A DNA stretch of 64,000 nt from NCBI RefSeq assembly GCF_014270065.1, contig NZ_JACNME010000001.1:496001-560000 (forward strand), read 5' to 3'. Made by a program: the position numbers and the translations under genes. Below are positions 26,508 to 38,501 of the stretch, one piece after another. The stretch's first letter is position 1; each line of letters begins with the position of its first letter. The notes beneath the pieces are model-generated. The model searched no databases. It was not told where the DNA came from and saw only the letters and a program-made list of their open reading frames with translations. The stretch is from Quadrisphaera sp. RL12-1S. GTDB lineage: Bacteria; Actinomycetota; Actinomycetes; Actinomycetales; Quadrisphaeraceae.

Positions 26508-26555
26508 GAGCTGAGCGCCGAGGCGCACCCCGGTGCGCCGCGACGGGCTCAGCTC
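26508..26555. terminator. Compound hairpin at 3' end of CWB2-collagen gene
   Basis: Outer arms GAGCTGAGC (26508-26516) and its complement (26547-26555) enclose a second perfect stem GCGCACC/GGTGCGC (26523-26538). It lies between the convergent ends of the 26119 and 26554 genes and overlaps the latter's stop codon; likely a shared terminator. Confidence 0.65.
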
Positions 26556-27627
26556 AGCCGATCGGCTGCTTCAGGGGCAGCTGGGCGATGCTCAGGCGCG
26601 GGTAGTTCTGGTTGGTGGTGCTCAGGGTCGAGGAGGTGTTGTTGTAGAACCTCATCCGCACGTAGTCGCCCTGGTACAGCCACACCGTCTGGGAGACGCT
26701 CAGGGTGGTGTTGTAGCTGGCCTGGGCGGTGGTGTTGGACTGCTCGGCGACCTGCTGGTCGCTCAGGCCGTGACCGGTGACGGTCAGGGCCAGGTAGCGC
26801 TCCCCGGCGGCGGAGGAGTTGGTCTGGTCCAGCCGGATGGCGCCGCTGACCTGGTAGAAGCCGTCGGCGGGGGCAGTGACGGTGTCGAAGGTGCCACCGG
26901 AGCCGCCGGAGTAGTTCGCCGGCACCTGGACGGTGGCTCCGGATGTGTGGGAGGCGGGGCTGGCGAAGCTGACCAGGGCGTAGGTGTTGGCGGCGAAGCT
27001 CTGCACCGCGGTGGCCTGGAAGGTGGCCAGGGACAGCGCCGAGGTGGTCACCGGCGTGGTCCAGGTGGTGTTGTAGTCGGTGCCGTTGACCTTGGAGAGC
27101 ACCTGGCCGGTGGTGCCGCCGGCGGCCACGCCCGGCCCGGTCGCGCCGGGAGCTCCGCTGGTGCCGTTGGCACCGACGGGCCCCGCAGCACCAGTGGCTC
27201 CAGCGGGTCCGGCGGGGGTGGGCAGCGACGCCGCCAGGCCCGCCAGCAGCACCGCGGTCTCCTGGCGGTTCGCACCGCCGTACCGGCTGACCGCGTACGC
27301 GCCAGCCAGGCTCGTCTTCACCGCCTCGCTGATGACGGCGGTGCCTCCGACAAGCGCGACGGCGGTGGGCTTGTACGAGCTGAGGTAGTCCGCGGTGGCC
27401 TGGGGGACTGCGGTGGGGTCGGTGTACAGCAGCGGGGCGGAGGCCTTCGCGGCGACCGGACCGGCGGTCATCGCGTCTGCTCCGGCGCCGGAGGCGACGA
27501 GGAACACCGGGCGGGCTCCCAGGTCGACGGTGCTGTTGGCAGCCGAGGCGGTGCCGACGGCGCCGGCCAGCAGCGCCAGGGCCCCAGCGGTCGCCAGGAC
27601 CGTTCGCGGTGCTCGCATCGCTGCCAC
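26554..27627 (-). CDS. Secreted CWB2 / collagen-like / C1q-like surface protein
   Basis: 357 residues. Sec signal peptide 1-29 (ends TASA). About 33-110 resembles one cell-wall-binding type 2 repeat (PVFLVASGAGADAMTAGP, ALVGGTAVIS). About 115-145 is a Gly-x-y collagen-like stretch with nine or so triplets. GQVLSKVNGTDYNTTW is a linker of the kind seen in phage tail-fibre proteins. The C-terminal half is beta-rich and C1q/TNF-like (GFYQVSGAIRL, ERYLALTVTG). GTG start four bases after GGAGGAG. Predicted surface stalk with a globular head that binds a ligand; the ligand is unknown. It shares CWB2 repeats with the next gene. Confidence 0.8.
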   Translation of the reverse strand: MAAMRAPRTVLATAGALALLAGAVGTASAANSTVDLGARPVFLVASGAGADAMTAGPVAAKASAPLLYTDPTAVPQATADYLSSYKPTAVALVGGTAVISEAVKTSLAGAYAVSRYGGANRQETAVLLAGLAASLPTPAGPAGATGAAGPVGANGTSGAPGATGPGVAAGGTTGQVLSKVNGTDYNTTWTTPVTTSALSLATFQATAVQSFAANTYALVSFASPASHTSGATVQVPANYSGGSGGTFDTVTAPADGFYQVSGAIRLDQTNSSAAGERYLALTVTGHGLSDQQVAEQSNTTAQASYNTTLSVSQTVWLYQGDYVRMRFYNNTSSTLSTTNQNYPRLSIAQLPLKQPIG

Positions 27628-27896: not shown

Positions 27897-30410
27897 TCAG
27901 CTGTTCAGGAGCGCTCCGGCGCGGTCGTAGGCCGCTGCTGGGATGGCGGAGGTGCCACCGAAGGCGAGCACCCGCTGAGCTCTCAGCGCGCTGAGCGCGG
28001 TCGCGGTGGAAGGGGGCACGCTGTCGCTGCCGGTGGGGGTCAGCAGCAGCGGCCCCCCGAGCGCGGCCATCGCCGCCGAGCCTGACAGGGCGTCGGACCA
28101 GGACGCCCCACCGGCCAGCCCGACCGAGGCCACCACCGAGGAGGTCGAGCTCGAGGACGACGACGAGGCGCTGGCCTTCATCGCCGCAGCGAGCTTGGCG
28201 GAGGTCTCGTACCGGTCCGCCCCGACGACGGCGCGGCTGGCCGCACCGTCCAGCCCGGCGGTGGTGGCGGCGGTCTTGGCCGGGCCGCCGATGGCGACGG
28301 CGCGGGTGCCGGTGGGGTCGTGGTCCTTCAGGTACGCCGCCGTCGCCGCCGGCATCTTCTCGCCGTCGGTGAGCAGCACCACACCACCGGTGGACTGGGC
28401 GTAGGCGCCCACGGAGACCCCGTCGGCGAAGTCCTTGCCGGTCACCAGGTAGATCGGGCCGACGTCACCGGCCTTCTTCACCGTGGCATCAGCGATGGCC
28501 GCAGCGGTCTCGAAGCGGGTGTCCCCACCCACGCGGACCACGGTGTCACCGCTGACCAGGTCACCGGTGGCCTTCTCCACCGCGTCGGACAGGGCCTTGT
28601 CCCCGCCGAGGAGGTACACCGTGCCCCCAGCGGCCACCAGGCGCTTGACCTGAGCGGCTGCCTCCTCAGAGAGCTGGTTGCCGTTGGTCAGCAGCAGGGG
28701 TCCTCCGACCTGGCCTGCCAGGCGGGACCCGGCCAGGGCGTCGGCGTAGGACCCGGCGGTGGCGATGACCACGTCACGGCTGGTGCCGGCCGCGGGGGTG
28801 GGGAAGACCTTGGCGGCGATGTCCGCCGACGTCGCGACCCGCTCGGAGCCGGCGAAGCGCTGCGGCCCGGTCGGCAGCGCCGCCACGGAGGCCTCCGGGG
28901 CGGTGATGGTGATGTCGAGGTTCTTGGCGGTCAAGCCGTTGGTGGTGGTGGCTGCGGCGGTCACCGTGACCGTGCAGGTGCCGGCCTTCAGGGCGGTGAC
29001 GATGCCGCTGCTGTCGACGGTGCAGATCTGCGGGGTGGCCGCGGTGTAGTTCAGCTTCCCGCCCGCCGTGCTCGAGCCGGTGGAGCTCGGCGTCGACCCG
29101 GTGGCGGTGGCGTTCAGCGCGAAGGTCCGCGCGCCCAGGCTCAGGGACTTCGGGGCGGAGCTGGTCAGCTGCTGCTGCGGCAGGGACGCCACCACCGCGG
29201 GGGCCGGGTTCACCGTCAGCGTCGCCGGGAGGGTGTCGTACCCCGCGGTGGTGGTCGCCATCAACGTGAACGTCGACGTGCCCGCCGTGGTCGGCGTTCC
29301 CGTGATCGCGCCAGTGGCCGTGTTCAGCGCCAGACCCGCCGGCAGAGACCCGGCGGAGATGCTCCAGGTGATCGTCGAGCCTCCCGCGGACCCGGTGGCA
29401 CCGAAGGTGTACGCGGTGCCCACCACCGGCGCCTGCGACATCGTCGGGGTGGAGATCGTCGGCAGCATCCCAACGGGGAACGTCACCTTCTCGATGCGGT
29501 TGTTCCCGGTGTCGGCGATGTAGACGTTGCCGGCGCCATCCACGGCCACACCCTGCGGGTAGCTCAGCGCTGACGAGGTCGCCGCTCCAGCCGTGGCGGC
29601 CCCCGTGGTGCCGGCGCCAGCGATGACGCTGAGCTGACCGGAGGTGTCGACCTTCTCGATGCGGTGGTTGAACGTGTCGGCGATGTAGACGTTGCCGGCG
29701 CCATCCACGCCCACCCCGTACGGCTGGTTCAGCGTCGAGGAGGTCGCCGCTCCAGCGGTGGGAGCACCCTGCCTGCCGGTGCCGGCGATGATGCTGAGCT
29801 GACCGGAGGGGTTGACCTTCTCGATGCGGTAGCTGTTGGTGTCGGCGATGTAGACGTTGCCGGCGCCATCCACGGCCACGCCCGCCGGGTAGCTCAGTGT
29901 TGAGGAGGTCGCCGCTCCAGCGGTGGGAGCACCGGCGGTGCCGGTGCCGGCGATGATGCTGAGCTGACCGGAGGTGTTGACCTTCTCGATGCGGTGGTTG
30001 CTGGTGTCGGCGATGTAGACGTTGCCAGCGCTGTCCACGGCCACCCCGGACGGGGTGTACAGCGCTGAGGAGGTCGCCGGCCCGGCGGTGGGAGCACCGG
30101 CGGTGCCAGTACCGGCGATGATGCTGAGCTGACCGAAGGTGTCGACCTTCTCGATGCGGTGGTTGCTGGTGTCGGCGATGTAGACGTTGCCGGCGCCATC
30201 CACGGCCACACCCTGCGGGTAGCTCAGCGCTGAGGAGGTCGCTGGTCCAGCGCTGGGAGCAACGGCACTGCCGGTGCCGGCGACGAAGCTCAAGGTGGGC
30301 GGTGCAGCCACCGGGGTCGCCTGCGCCGGAGCCGCACACGTCAGGATCCCCGCGGTGGCAGCCAGGGCCAGCGTCGCCGCCAGAGCACCCCGCCGACGTG
30401 GATCTCTCAT
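27897..30410 (-). CDS. Secreted NHL-propeller / Ig-like / CWB2 wall protein
   Basis: 837 residues. Signal peptide 1-31 (ends AQA). About 38-310 holds five NHL repeats, each with GVAVDGAGNVYIADT and HRIEKV, which probably form a propeller. About 318-400 is a putative Ig-like domain (SAGSLPAGLALNTATGAITG). About 410-530 is a BIG-like domain with CTVDSSGIVTALKAGTCTVTV. From about 545 three cell-wall-binding type 2 repeats follow (DVVIATAGSYADALAGS, YLLGGDKALSDAV, RVGGDTRFETAA). A Ser run (SSSSSSTSS) lies in the third. It should be anchored to the wall by CWB2 with the propeller outward. ATG at 30410 starts the signal peptide. Confidence 0.85.
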   Translation of the reverse strand: MRDPRRRGALAATLALAATAGILTCAAPAQATPVAAPPTLSFVAGTGSAVAPSAGPATSSALSYPQGVAVDGAGNVYIADTSNHRIEKVDTFGQLSIIAGTGTAGAPTAGPATSSALYTPSGVAVDSAGNVYIADTSNHRIEKVNTSGQLSIIAGTGTAGAPTAGAATSSTLSYPAGVAVDGAGNVYIADTNSYRIEKVNPSGQLSIIAGTGRQGAPTAGAATSSTLNQPYGVGVDGAGNVYIADTFNHRIEKVDTSGQLSVIAGAGTTGAATAGAATSSALSYPQGVAVDGAGNVYIADTGNNRIEKVTFPVGMLPTISTPTMSQAPVVGTAYTFGATGSAGGSTITWSISAGSLPAGLALNTATGAITGTPTTAGTSTFTLMATTTAGYDTLPATLTVNPAPAVVASLPQQQLTSSAPKSLSLGARTFALNATATGSTPSSTGSSTAGGKLNYTAATPQICTVDSSGIVTALKAGTCTVTVTAAATTTNGLTAKNLDITITAPEASVAALPTGPQRFAGSERVATSADIAAKVFPTPAAGTSRDVVIATAGSYADALAGSRLAGQVGGPLLLTNGNQLSEEAAAQVKRLVAAGGTVYLLGGDKALSDAVEKATGDLVSGDTVVRVGGDTRFETAAAIADATVKKAGDVGPIYLVTGKDFADGVSVGAYAQSTGGVVLLTDGEKMPAATAAYLKDHDPTGTRAVAIGGPAKTAATTAGLDGAASRAVVGADRYETSAKLAAAMKASASSSSSSSTSSVVASVGLAGGASWSDALSGSAAMAALGGPLLLTPTGSDSVPPSTATALSALRAQRVLAFGGTSAIPAAAYDRAGALLNS
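29482..30306. repeat. Five 165-bp tandem repeats inside the NHL gene
   Basis: The stretch encoding GNVYIAD recurs with an exact 165-bp step (for example at 29521, 29686, 29851, 30016 and 30181), coding for 55-residue units. Copies are nearly identical at DNA level, including synonymous positions. This indicates recent duplication or gene conversion and a copy number likely to vary. Confidence 0.9.
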
Positions 30411-30633: not shown

Positions 30634-30976
30634 TCAGGGGCCGGCTGCCGCGAGTGCGGCAGCGGGCCGCAGGAGCATGTGGCGGTACAGGCCGGTGGGG
30701 GTGATGCAGGTCTTGGCGACGATCTGGTCGGCGGTGCAGCCTCCGACGTCACGCAGGTGCACCGCGTGAGCCAGCCTGTCGGGGTCGACCCCGCTGGACC
30801 GACCGACGTAGCGGCCCTCGGCGGTGGCCACCGCGCGGGCATGGGCGTCGCGCTCGGCGGTGCGGGGTGTGCACGACGATCACATCGCCGTCGCGGGCGC
30901 ATGCCAGGACGGCCTGCAGTCCGGGGCGATCGGTGTTCTGGCCGGTCTTTCGGTCGACGTAGATCCGCTCGCCTCA
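30634..30976 (-). pseudogene. Serine recombinase (resolvase/invertase) remnant
   Basis: Two pieces of a small serine recombinase in different frames. Near 30976-30850 one frame reads GERIYVDRKTGQNTDRPGLQ then DGDVIVVHT, matching the catalytic-domain segment of resolvases. From about 30850 to 30637 another frame reads TAEGRYVGRSSGVDPDRLAH and ends in a helix-turn-helix (ADQIVAKTCITPTGLYRHM). The catalytic N-terminus and the segment joining the domains are missing, and a stop lies just upstream. Clear trace of a past mobile element at the edge of the island. Confidence 0.8.
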
Positions 30977-31228: not shown

Positions 31229-31314
31229 GCGCCGTCAGCGTGGTCCTGCTGCTCCTCGTGCTCGCCCTGGCCGGCTACCTGCTGACGGCCCTGCTGGACC
31301 CGGAGCGCTTCTGA
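31225..31314 (+). CDS. kdpF: Potassium-transporting ATPase subunit KdpF
   Basis: 29-residue single-helix subunit that stabilises the KdpFABC complex. The sequence shows one membrane helix (VVLLLLVLALAGYLLTALL) and the family's C-terminal DPERF. GTG start overlapping the upstream peptide; its TGA overlaps the kdpA ATG by one base. Confidence 0.9.
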   Translation: MSAVSVVLLLLVLALAGYLLTALLDPERF

Positions 31315-32992
31315 TGCTCCCGACCACTGGCCTGTCCGACTCCGCGGCCGGCTTCCTCACCGTCGCGGCCCTCGTGGCCGCCCTCGCGCTCGTCCACGCC
31401 CCCCTGGGCGACTTCATGGCCCGCGTCTACACCTCCGAGCGCCACCTGCGCGTGGAGCGCGTGCTCTACCGCGCCGCCGGCATCGACCCCGAGGCGGAGC
31501 AGCGCTGGCCGGTCTACGCCCGCGCCGTCCTCGGCTTCTCGTTCGTGTCCGTGCTCTTCCTGTACGCCTTCCAGCGGCTGCAGCACTGGCTGCCGCTGTC
31601 CCTCGGCTTCCCGGGCGTCCCGGCGCCGACCGCCTGGAACACGGCCATCAGCTTCGTGACCAACACGAACTGGCAGTCGTACTCCGGTGAGTCGACCATG
31701 GGCCACCTCGTGCAGGCCGCGGGCCTGGCGGTGCAGAACTTCACGTCGGCGGCCGTCGGCATGGCCGTGGCCGTGGCGCTGGTGCGCGGGTTCACCCGCC
31801 ACCGCACCGAGCGCATCGGCAGCTTCTGGGTGGACCTGGTCCGGACCTGCGTGCGGATCCTGCTGCCGCTGGCGCTCGTCGCCGCCGTCGTCATGCTCCT
31901 CGGCGGGGTGGTCCAGAACCTCAGCGGCCCGACGGCGTACACCACCGTCGCCGGCGGCACCCAGACCATCACCGGCGGGCCGATCGCCTCGCAGGAGGCC
32001 ATCAAGGAGCTGGGCACCAACGGCGGCGGCTTCTTCAACGCCAACTCCGCCCACCCCTTCGAGGGGCCGACGGCGTGGGTCAGCCTGTTCCAGGTCTTCC
32101 TCCTGCTGGTGATCCCGTTCTCGCTGCCCCGGACCTTCGGCCGGCTGGTCGGCGACAAGCGCCACGGCCTCGCCGTCCTCGGGGTCATGGGCGTCCTGTG
32201 GCTCGGGTCGGTGACCCTGGCGGTCTGGGCCGAGGTCACCGGCGCGGGCGCCGTGCCGCAGGCGGCCGGGGCCGCGATGGAGGGCAAGGAGGTCCGCTTC
32301 GGCGAGGTCCTCACCGGCCTGTTCGGCGCGTCCACCACGGCCACGTCCACCGGCGCCGTCAACGGCGCGCACGACTCCCTCACGGCGGCCGGCGGTGGCG
32401 TCGCGATGCTCAACATGATGCTGGGCGAGGTGTCCCCCGGTGGCACCGGCTCGGGCCTGTACGGCCTGCTCGTGCTCGCGGTCATCGCCGTCTTCCTCGC
32501 CGGCCTCATGGTGGGCCGCACGCCCGAGCTGCTCGGCAAGAAGATCGGCCGCCACGAGGTGGCGCTGGTCGCCCTGTACGTGCTGGCCACCCCGACCCTG
32601 CTGCTCGTGGGCGCCGCGCTCACCGTGGGGGTCCCCTCCCTGCTGGGCGCCTCCGTCCAGCAGAGCGGAGCCCACGGCCTGTCCGAGGTGCTCTACGCGT
32701 ACGCCTCCGCCGCCAACAACAACGGCTCGGCGTTCGCCGGGTTCGGCGCCGCCACCGACTACCAGAACGTCGCGCTGGCGCTGGCCATGGTGTTCGGCAG
32801 GTTCGTGCCGATGCTCCTGGTCATCGCCCTGGCGGGCCGCCTCGCCGCGCAGGCGCCGGTCCCGGTCACCGCGGGCACGCTGCCCACCCACACCCCCCTC
32901 TTCGCGAGCCTGGTCACCGTCGTCGTCATCGTCGTCGCCGGTCTGACCTACTTCCCCGCGCTCGCCCTCGCTCCGATCGCTGAGGCCCTCTC

Positions 32993-32996
<4 letters not shown>
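31314..32996 (+). CDS. kdpA: Potassium-transporting ATPase subunit KdpA
   Basis: Channel-like K+-binding subunit of the Kdp pump, 560 residues, about ten membrane helices. The four pseudo-repeated selectivity-filter regions are visible: [44 protein letters not shown] and [10 protein letters not shown]. Takes up K+ at very low external concentration and hands it to KdpB. ATG start is translationally coupled to kdpF; its stop overlaps kdpB (ATGA). Confidence 0.96.
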
Positions 32997-35107
<2,111 letters not shown>

Positions 35108-35142
35108 GCCCCGGCGCAAGCCGCACTACCGAGGAGTACCCC

Positions 35143-35760
35143 GTGTCCCGCGTGCTCGACCTGTCCCGCCAGTCCGTCGCCGGCCTGCGCCTGCTGCTGG
35201 CCCTCACCGTGCTCCTCGGCCTGGTCTACCCGGCCGTCCTCCTGGGCGTCGGCCGGCTCGTCCCCGGCCGCGCCGACGGCTCGATGATCGCGGTCGACGG
35301 GCGCCCCAGCGGCTCCTCGCTCATCGGCCAGCAGTTCGGCTCGGACCAGGACCCGTCCTCGCAGCTGCCGTGGTTCCAGCCCCGGCCCTCGGCGGCCGGT
35401 GACGGGTACGACCCGCAGTCCTCCGGGGCCTCCAACCTCGGGCCGAACAACCCCGACCTCGTCAAGACCGTCGAGGAGCGCCGCGCCGCCGTCGCCGCCC
35501 GCGAGGGCGTCGACCCCGCCGCGGTCCCGGCGGACGCCGTCACCGCCTCGGCGTCCGGGCTGGACCCGGACGTCTCCCCCGCCTACGCCCAGCTCCAGGT
35601 GGCCCGCGTGGCCCGCGAGCGCGGCCTGCCCGTGTCCCAGGTGGAGCAGCTGGTGCGCGAGAGCACCCACGGGCGCGACCTCGGCTTCATCGGGGAGCCC
35701 ACCGTCGACGTCGTCACCCTCAACGCCGCCCTCGCCCGGGTCGGCGGCCCCCAGGGGTGA
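35143..35760 (+). CDS. kdpC: Potassium-transporting ATPase subunit KdpC
   Basis: 205 residues: a basic N-terminus, one membrane helix (RLLLALTVLLGLVYPAVLLG), then an extracytoplasmic domain. Conserved blocks are SLIGQQFG, WFQPRPSAAGDGYDPQSSGASNLG and the C-terminal LGFIGEPTVDVVTLNAAL. Needed for assembly and ATP affinity of the KdpFABC complex. GTG start; its stop overlaps kdpD (GTGA). Confidence 0.95.
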   Translation: MSRVLDLSRQSVAGLRLLLALTVLLGLVYPAVLLGVGRLVPGRADGSMIAVDGRPSGSSLIGQQFGSDQDPSSQLPWFQPRPSAAGDGYDPQSSGASNLGPNNPDLVKTVEERRAAVAAREGVDPAAVPADAVTASASGLDPDVSPAYAQLQVARVARERGLPVSQVEQLVRESTHGRDLGFIGEPTVDVVTLNAALARVGGPQG

Positions 35761-38501
35761 GCGGACGGGTGGACCTGCCGGCTCCTGCGGCGCGGCCCGC
35801 GGGCCCGCCGGAGGAGGATGGCGCCGTGCAGGGGGCGGGCGGTGCGCGGCGCGGCAGGCTGAGGGTCTACCTGGGCGCCGCCCCCGGCGTGGGCAAGACC
35901 GTCGCCATGCTCGGCGAGGGCCACCGCCGCGCCGAGCGCGGCCAGGACGTGGTGGTCGCGTTCGTGGAGACCCACGGCCGCGCCCACACCGCGGCCGCCA
36001 CCGAGGGCCTGGAGCTGGTCCCCCGGCGGCGGCTCACGCACCCCGCCTCCCCCGGCACCGTGCTGGAGGAGATGGACGTCGACGCCGTGCTGGCCCGCGC
36101 CCCCCGGCACGCGCTGGTGGACGAGCTGGCGCACACCAACGCGCCGGGCTCGCGCAACGCCAAGCGGTGGCAGGACGTCGAGGAGCTGCTGGCGGCCGGC
36201 GTGGACGTCATCACCACCGTCAACGTGCAGCACCTGGAGTCGCTCAACGACGTCGTCGCGCAGATCACCGGCGTGCGCCAGCGCGAGACCGTCCCCGACG
36301 ACGTGGTGAGGTCGGCGGACGCCATCGAGCTGGTGGACATGAGCCCGCAGGCGCTGCGGCGCCGCCTCGCCCACGGCAACGTCTACGCCGCCGAGCGCGT
36401 GGACGCCGCGCTGTCCAACTACTTCCGGGTGGGCAACCTCACCGCCCTGCGCGAGCTCGCGCTGCTGTGGACGGCGGACCGGGTGGACGCCGCCCTGGCC
36501 CTGTACCGCGCCGAGCAGGGCATCGCCGAGCCGTGGGGCGCCCGCGAGCGCGTGGTGGTGGCGCTGACGGGCGGGCCGGAGGGGGACGCGCTGGTGCGCC
36601 GCGCGGCGCGCATCACCCAGCGCGCCGCGGGCGGTGAGCTGCTGGCCCTGCACGTCTCCCGCTCCGACGGGCTGACGGGGGCCGCGCCGGACGCGCTGGC
36701 GCGCCAGCGGCTGCTGGCGGAGAGCCTCGGCGGCAGCTGGCACTCGGTGGTGGGCGAGGACGTCGCCACCGCCATCCTCGACTTCGCCCGCGGCGTCAAC
36801 GCCACCCACGTGGTGGTCGGGGCCAGCCGGCGCAGCCGGCTCGCGGCGGCGCTGTCGCCCGGTGTGGGACAGCGCGTCATCGACGGCTCCGGTGACATCG
36901 ACGTGCACGTGGTCACGCACGCCGCCGCCCGCGGCCAGCAGGGGCGGCTGGTCCGCCGGACGGCGCTGTCCGCGCTCCCCGCGCGGCGCCGGGCGGCCGG
37001 CTGGGCGCTGGCCGTGGTGGCGCCGGTGGCCCTCACGGGGCTGCTGCACCTGACCCGGGCGCGCCACGAGCTGCCCAGCGAGCTGCTGCTCTTCCTGGCC
37101 CTCGTGGTGGGGGTGGCCCTCGTCGGCGGGATGTGGCCGGCGGTGCTGGCCGCGGTGCTGTCGGGGCTGCTGGCCAACTGGTACTTCACCCCGCCCTACG
37201 GCACGCTCACCATCGCCGAGCCGGCCAACGCCGTCGCGCTGTTCGTGCTGGTCAGCGTGGGGGCGGCGGTAGCCGCCGTGGTGGACACCGCGGCCCGCAG
37301 GGCCCGGGACGCCGCCCGCGCCCGCGCCGAGGCCGACGTGCTGGCCACGCTCGCGGGCAGCGTGCTGCGCGGCGCCCAGGCCGTGCCCGCGCTGCTGGAC
37401 CGGCTGGTGGAGACCTTCGGCCTCCAGGGCGCGGCGCTGCTGGAGCGCACGCGGGACCAGGTGGGCACCGCGAACGACGTGTGGCGGGTCGTGGCCTCGC
37501 AGGGCTGCCCCCCGCCGTCCTCGCCCGAGGCCGCGGACGCGGCGCTGCCGGTGGACGAGCACCTGAGCATCGCCATCACCAGCCAGCAGGGCGGTCCGGC
37601 GCTGTCGGCCTCGGACCTCCGCGTGCTGACGGCGGTGGCCGCGCAGGCGGGGTCGCTGCTGGAGCGGGACAGGCTGCGGGAGACCGCGCGGGCGGCGCGC
37701 CGCGAGGAGGAGCGCACCGCCACGCGGACCGCGCTGCTGGCCGCCGTCTCGCACGACCTGCGCACGCCGCTGGCGAGCGTCAAGGCGTCGGCCTCGACGC
37801 TGCGCTCCCTCGGCGCCGAGCTCGACCCCGCCGACCGCGAGGTGCTGCTGGCGGACGTGGAGACCTCCGCGGACCGCCTGCAGGCCCTCGTCGACAACCT
37901 CCTGGACATGAGCCGCCTCGACGCCGGGGCGGTGCGGGCGCGCCGCGAGGCGGTGGCCCTGGACGAGGTGGTCCCCCGCGCGCTCGCGGGCCTCACCCCG
38001 GAGCAGGCGGGCGCCGTGGTGGTGGACGTCTCCGAGGACCTCCCGCTGGTCGACACCGACGCCGGCCTGCTCGAGCGCGCGCTCGGCAACGTGGTGGAGA
38101 ACGCCCTGCGCCACGCCGTCCCCCACGCCCCCGGCACCCCGGTGGAGGTGACGGCCGGGGTGGTGGACGACACCGCCGCGCCCGGCGGACGGGGAGGACG
38201 CCGGGTGGTGGTGCGCGTGGTCGACCGCGGCCCGGGCATCCCCGACGACCGCAAGGCCGCCGCCTTCTCCGCCTTCCAGCGGCTGGGGGACGCGCCGGGC
38301 GCCCTCGGCGTGGGGCTGGGCCTGGCGGTGGCGCGGGGCCTGGTGGAGGCCAGCGGTGGCACGGTGGAGGCCGACGACACCCCCGGTGGCGGGCTCACCG
38401 TGGTGTTCTCACTGCCCGTGGCCGCTGCTCCCGGCAGTGGCAGTGGCAGTGGCAGTGGCAGCGGCAGCGGCGCGCCGAGCGAGCAGGAGGTGCCCGCGTG
38501 A
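35757..38501 (+). CDS. kdpD: Potassium sensor histidine kinase KdpD
   Basis: 914-residue membrane kinase. The KdpD N-terminal domain has Walker A GAAPGVGKT (Lys about 47) and DELAHTNAPGSRN; a USP-like domain spans about 260-390; four membrane helices (DUF4118) about 410-510; a GAF region follows. HisKA has the phospho-acceptor His at about 666 in SHDLRTPLASVKAS, and the ATPase domain has VVENALRHA, DRGPGIPD and LGVGLGLAVARGL. It phosphorylates KdpE under K+ limitation. The C-terminus ends in a Gly-Ser repeat encoded by a hexanucleotide microsatellite. Overlaps kdpC and kdpE by four bases each. Confidence 0.95.
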   Translation: MSGRVDLPAPAARPAGPPEEDGAVQGAGGARRGRLRVYLGAAPGVGKTVAMLGEGHRRAERGQDVVVAFVETHGRAHTAAATEGLELVPRRRLTHPASPGTVLEEMDVDAVLARAPRHALVDELAHTNAPGSRNAKRWQDVEELLAAGVDVITTVNVQHLESLNDVVAQITGVRQRETVPDDVVRSADAIELVDMSPQALRRRLAHGNVYAAERVDAALSNYFRVGNLTALRELALLWTADRVDAALALYRAEQGIAEPWGARERVVVALTGGPEGDALVRRAARITQRAAGGELLALHVSRSDGLTGAAPDALARQRLLAESLGGSWHSVVGEDVATAILDFARGVNATHVVVGASRRSRLAAALSPGVGQRVIDGSGDIDVHVVTHAAARGQQGRLVRRTALSALPARRRAAGWALAVVAPVALTGLLHLTRARHELPSELLLFLALVVGVALVGGMWPAVLAAVLSGLLANWYFTPPYGTLTIAEPANAVALFVLVSVGAAVAAVVDTAARRARDAARARAEADVLATLAGSVLRGAQAVPALLDRLVETFGLQGAALLERTRDQVGTANDVWRVVASQGCPPPSSPEAADAALPVDEHLSIAITSQQGGPALSASDLRVLTAVAAQAGSLLERDRLRETARAARREEERTATRTALLAAVSHDLRTPLASVKASASTLRSLGAELDPADREVLLADVETSADRLQALVDNLLDMSRLDAGAVRARREAVALDEVVPRALAGLTPEQAGAVVVDVSEDLPLVDTDAGLLERALGNVVENALRHAVPHAPGTPVEVTAGVVDDTAAPGGRGGRRVVVRVVDRGPGIPDDRKAAAFSAFQRLGDAPGALGVGLGLAVARGLVEASGGTVEADDTPGGGLTVVFSLPVAAAPGSGSGSGSGSGSGAPSEQEVPA
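38433..38470 (+). repeat. GGCAGT/GGCAGC hexanucleotide repeat in kdpD tail
   Basis: Six consecutive hexamers (four GGCAGT, two GGCAGC) encode a Gly-Ser run near the KdpD C-terminus. Such arrays can gain or lose units without breaking the frame. Confidence 0.85.

Follow-up and report, generated by a model that had tools for sequence, protein, structure and literature searches.

Why does a probably wall-associated protein of Quadrisphaera sp. RL12-1S carry five NHL units, when six or twelve is the number detected in most related arrays, and is that number free to change? The question arises from the window, by which we mean the whole stretch of 64,000 nucleotides that was analyzed. We propose, with about even confidence, that the gene encodes a six-fold NHL propeller protein in which the blades evolve in concert and the array is one unit short, most likely by in-frame loss.

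The array gene and its domains

The array stands apart from the other repeats of the window, as Tandem Repeats Finder places it at 29485-30290 with a period of 165, 4.9 copies and a score of 1153, compared with 87 for the next highest among the 24 rows. The five units of 165 bp (55 amino acids) are all in frame within a single minus-strand ORF, at 30293-29469, and these boundaries, which are used throughout, are 13 bases off those of the sequence-only reading. The start of the coding sequence, the ATG at 30410, was picked by eye, and a longer ORF begins further upstream. The features of the gene are as follows.

27897..30410, minus strand: whole coding sequence, 837 amino acids plus stop (ORF and translation)
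30318..30410, minus strand: signal-peptide-like N-terminus, residues 1-31 (by eye from the translation)
30129..30293, minus strand: NHL unit 1 (repeat finder, Pfam, translation)
29964..30128, minus strand: NHL unit 2 (repeat finder, Pfam, translation)
29799..29963, minus strand: NHL unit 3 (repeat finder, Pfam, translation)
29634..29798, minus strand: NHL unit 4 (repeat finder, Pfam, translation); core like the last blade of the homologue in Q. granulorum
29469..29633, minus strand: NHL unit 5 (repeat finder, Pfam, translation); looks chimeric, its last part being like the homologue's terminal blade (sliding identity)
29208..29462, minus strand: Ig-like He_PIG match (PF05345), residues 317-401 (Pfam, E 3.9e-12)
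28959..29048, minus strand: Big-like match (PF22359), residues 455-484 (Pfam, borderline at 27.1 bits for a cut-off of 27)
27900..28859, minus strand: CWB2 region, three PF04122 stretches from residue 518 on (Pfam)

The placing of NHL units on a CWB2 protein by the sequence-only reading is borne out, since Pfam finds both on the same protein: NHL (PF01436) in five stretches (1.5e-40; 135.7 bits for a cut-off of 20) and CW_binding_2 (PF04122) in three tandem stretches at one end (1.8e-40). In the search for curated NCBIfam names every match was under its cut-off. From its sequence the protein is probably secreted and wall-associated, we infer a surface location for it, and the Ig-like linkers and CWB2 domains would hold the blades away from the wall. 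It resembles the CWB2-anchored surface proteins of Clostridioides difficile, as described in the available part of PMC4973711, in having three CWB2 stretches at one end and a secreted-type sequence, and it differs from those proteins in that its host is an actinobacterium, where a PSII-like polymer need not occur, and its wall binding is predicted. A search of the open-licence literature for a paper with both 'NHL repeat' and 'CWB2' found none.

CWB2 proteins are numerous in the same genome and their N-terminal parts differ; the window protein has 24 match stretches there on several contigs, several of them within one gene. A homologue in a second genome (G002, L066:2084-5185) is 71% identical over 462 residues in its C-terminal half, while its front differs and is weakly NHL-like with three detected blades, a case of domain exchange. 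Around the array gene in the window lie a small minus-strand protein (26554-27627) that has a single CWB2 stretch (1.6e-10) and, under the cut-off, a collagen-like segment, and, on the plus strand, an adjoining kdpABCD-like potassium-uptake operon (31314-38501, labels by eye). Upstream on the minus strand is a serine recombinase remnant (30863-30973, Pfam Resolvase 8.5e-07), which has an out-of-frame second piece to about 30630 that gives no Pfam match, so that its reading frame is broken.

Divergence and concerted evolution of the units

The description of the units as near-identical in DNA is overstated. Pairs of units have DNA identities of 0.77-0.87 and protein identities of 0.69-0.82, 57 of the 165 positions vary among the five, and the longest exact repeat is 66 bp. 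The synonymous divergence between units, which the sequence-only reading had suggested as a check, is given by dS values of 0.13-0.55. These are not far below the 0.50 that separates the window species from Q. granulorum in the CWB2 part of the protein (from pairs among the window, G3, G2 and C20 rows over 319-324 codons, with the C4 rows of about five codons left out), and hence the units are not recent copies. Nevertheless, the supposition that units recombine is supported, both by lineage-specific homogenization and by the following pair of tracts.

30168..30233, minus strand: tract of 66 bp in unit 1 with an exact copy in unit 5 (permutation p = 0.0002 for units 1 and 5, out of ten pairs tested)
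29508..29573, minus strand: 66-bp tract in unit 5, identical to that of unit 1 (same comparison)

The two tracts, which are the longest exact repeat of the array, share 17 consecutive variable sites and look conversion-like. Homogenization is seen in the comparison with the nearest homologue, that of Q. granulorum. In the unit tree, which is built on 165-bp units, the window units group together and blades 1-5 of the homologue group apart (supports 0.84 and 0.86), and mean identity is 0.850 within the window units and within these homologue blades versus 0.747 across. At the 80% level 24 columns are diagnostic for the split between the window units and these homologue blades (18 when gaps are excluded), more than for any other of the 252 splits, among which the runner-up reaches 16. 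The period also differs, being 55 residues in the window array and mostly 57 in that of Q. granulorum. In the tree the homologue's last blade clusters with the last blades of two other arrays and not with its own neighbors, and the window clade adjoins terminal blades, namely G3_6, C4a_6 and G25a_6 (supports 0.84 and 0.78). Judged from these sequences, the units evolve in concert on the species time scale, and the pattern does not resemble variation among strains. Units of the paralogous arrays in this genome are more diverged than those of the window.

Inside the array the pooled pN/pS is 0.62, with dN/dS of individual pairs from 0.34 to 1.25, and positive selection was rejected as an explanation of these values because relaxed constraint accounts equally for them. 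A restriction of the variation to one propeller face was likewise discarded as not clean: under the assignment of loops d-a, b-c and c-d to faces that we assume here, all three vary in the window, and the c-d loop is mostly constant in the Q. granulorum homologue.

Highly repetitive beta-propellers that were amplified from single blades provide the closest frame for these observations (Pereira and Lupas, 2022, PMC9218822, the available part). As in those propellers, the blades of the window protein are closer to each other than to the blades of homologues and have lineage-specific diagnostic positions, whereas, unlike the recent cases of that paper, the window units are 77-87% identical with many synonymous differences, pointing to an older event. 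On the strength of these synonymous changes (dS 0.13-0.55) the array is filed, from its sequence, as a related case of single-blade amplification and not as a recent one. The word NHL is absent from the main text of PMC9218822, in the part available, and arrays that are too short are taken in it as fragments of full domains.

Blade number and predicted structure

The proposal of a sixth, divergent blade in the window protein is not supported, as the blade profile finds none there and the flanks are otherwise occupied, by a signal-like segment (by eye) and a few residues in the 39 residues ahead of the array and by He_PIG (residues 317-401) behind it. The Q. granulorum homologue has six detected blades, and so do three more arrays of the window genome (two on contig C4 and a third on C20) and two of genome G025. 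The profile count from which these come has 38 rows, several of which show the same gene in overlapping loci, and includes many diverged arrays with one to five blades detected; only its arrays with six detected blades and the window were used here, and alone it does not show that six is universal. Among loci across phyla, which are the best 80 of at least 337 pattern-scan candidates confirmed against the five-unit window sequence, 64 of the 72 arrays in complete ORFs have six or twelve blades under a strict count that leaves out ORFs open at a locus end, and the remaining eight have two (one array), five (two), ten (one) or eleven (four) detected blades. A looser first count gave multiples of six in 92 of 123 runs, many of the others being at contig ends or having weak blades, and one run of 24 blades belongs to an ORF still open where its locus ends. 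At one locus (L144:3307-6727) two and ten blades lie in two overlapping frames and sum to twelve, possibly reflecting a frameshift in a twelve-blade array. The 30 Actinomycetes loci contain 28 six-blade runs, a sample that was drawn with a six-blade profile and is therefore biased towards six; the exceptions are three multi-array loci or runs cut by locus ends, with runs of five, ten and three blades at loci L201-L203 and nine runs cut by locus ends.

The window array thus departs from the six/twelve rule. By detected blades, a five-blade array is rare and not unique, with two other complete ORFs also having five. The sequence-only reading had stated that a fixed number and an old divergence between units in all relatives would speak against it, and this is largely what the relatives display, although the window itself departs in number. 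A repeat surface of freely variable length is not supported, given that the relatives mostly have six or twelve blades and the units are not recent copies.

The AlphaFold2 model of the window array (mean pLDDT 94.5; alignment of 40 rows) has four four-stranded blades and a fifth of three strands; its ring stays open, and the N-terminal segment expected to fill up the last blade does not form a strand (pLDDT about 73-80). The model of the six-unit Q. granulorum homologue (mean pLDDT 96.4; alignment of 39 rows) is closed, and its N-terminal strand is formed with a pLDDT of about 95. Almost the entire five-unit model superposes on human NHLRC2 (Z 36.7, 1.7 A, 281 residues aligned, target 349), and with a 351-residue SOQ1 chain the model has a TM-score of 0.88 by query and 0.72 by target. 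An open structure making up five sixths of a six-bladed ring would be expected to superpose in this way, with the qualification that the alignment behind the window model is made up of six-blade proteins and may bias its curvature. The best sequence match in the PDB is the NHL domain of a bacterial teneurin-like protein, 9ifo (1.2e-80), which is also the best Foldseek match (TM by query 0.88); unlike the window protein, this domain lies within a modeled chain of 1395 residues, belongs to another type of protein and, according to its listing, is without CWB2. No five-bladed propeller is named by title among the structure matches listed (50 per comparison), and the fold may still exist.

Origin of the five-unit array

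Our preferred explanation is that an ancestral six-blade array, in which blades were already recombining, would have lost one blade by in-frame recombination, and that the five units left would make five sixths of a six-bladed ring. The loss event itself is inferred. Unit 1 has the start and core features of the homologue's unit 1 and unit 5 has the tail of the homologue's last unit. The features of the terminal blade are divided between units 4 and 5 and do not point to one particular unit as the one lost. The orthology of the homologue is uncertain because, as far as tested, the gene occupies a different genomic place in Q. granulorum: a search with seven neighboring window proteins (E 1e-10) gave no match around the homologues in Q. 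granulorum (G003:C17:84000-110247) and in G002 (C109:1-16000, a stretch that offers only about 2 kb on one side), the sole neighbor match being that of the small CWB2 protein at another place of its own genome. The open ring may be tolerated, or its gap may be filled by a blade of another molecule.

Other origins of the number five have to be weighed against in-frame loss. It is rather unlikely that the true gene has six units of which the assembler merged two. The genome is indeed a draft of 27 contigs (4.6 Mb) and six is the usual number in relatives, but with 57 of 165 positions differing and no exact repeat beyond 66 bp the merging needs a sixth unit that is nearly identical to a retained one, and the paralogous arrays of the same assembly keep their six, though with more diverged units. 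A history in which five copies arose anew from one terminal-like blade, and not by reduction from six, would explain why the window units form one clade adjoining terminal blades, and independent amplifications have been described in close homologues (Pereira and Lupas, PMC9218822, the available part). We consider it clearly unlikely, however, as the tree is based on units of 165 bp and as the start and core of unit 1 and the tail of unit 5 match the homologue, suggesting that old positions were kept. A natural five-bladed NHL propeller that closes by itself is very improbable: although the sequence does contain the N-terminal strand that closure requires (LSFVAGTG), this strand is unformed in the AlphaFold2 model, and while other families include five-bladed propellers (PMC8458387), the designed NHL protein Pizza is reported to fold only as a six-bladed one (PMC8458387, PMC6327176), as far as the available parts of these papers go.

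The sequence-only reading had likened the array to phase or antigenic variation, and a change in unit number of this kind would be favored by the in-frame unit, the secreted-type protein and the past conversion between units. That resemblance finds no support and we regard such variation as extremely improbable. Units that are 77-87% identical with exact matches of at most 66 bp are not the long, nearly perfect repeats that it calls for, the relatives mostly have six or twelve blades, the divergence of the units is old when set against that between species, and the serine recombinase remnant upstream is broken.

The designed NHL propellers Pizza2 to Pizza7 (PMC7337062, PMC8458387, PMC6327176, the available parts) are among the closest known systems, and among PDB sequence matches they form the second group (Pizza7H, 4.1e-41). 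Pizza5, which like the window protein has NHL blades in a number other than six, is stated in the accessible text of PMC7337062 to form a hexamer. The window protein differs from the Pizza series in being natural, in its blades of 55 and not 42 residues, in its diverged units and in its fusion to wall-binding domains, and oligomers would be expected of it only by analogy. It is improbable, if worth stating, that it is a natural counterpart of Pizza5, in which each wall-anchored chain would contribute five blades of a six-fold ring and chains would share blades to close their rings. Were this true, the absence of a single in-frame unit would convert a surface propeller that is a monomer into an obligate oligomer cross-linking neighboring chains, a one-step route from monomer to lattice on the cell surface.

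Blade number in such NHL arrays is strongly quantized in sixes despite recombination between units, and a natural five-unit array offers a case in which to examine how a propeller with an incomplete ring tolerates, repairs or exploits the gap. Moreover, repeats in the DNA of a surface-type protein do not have to mean antigenic variation, as this array illustrates.
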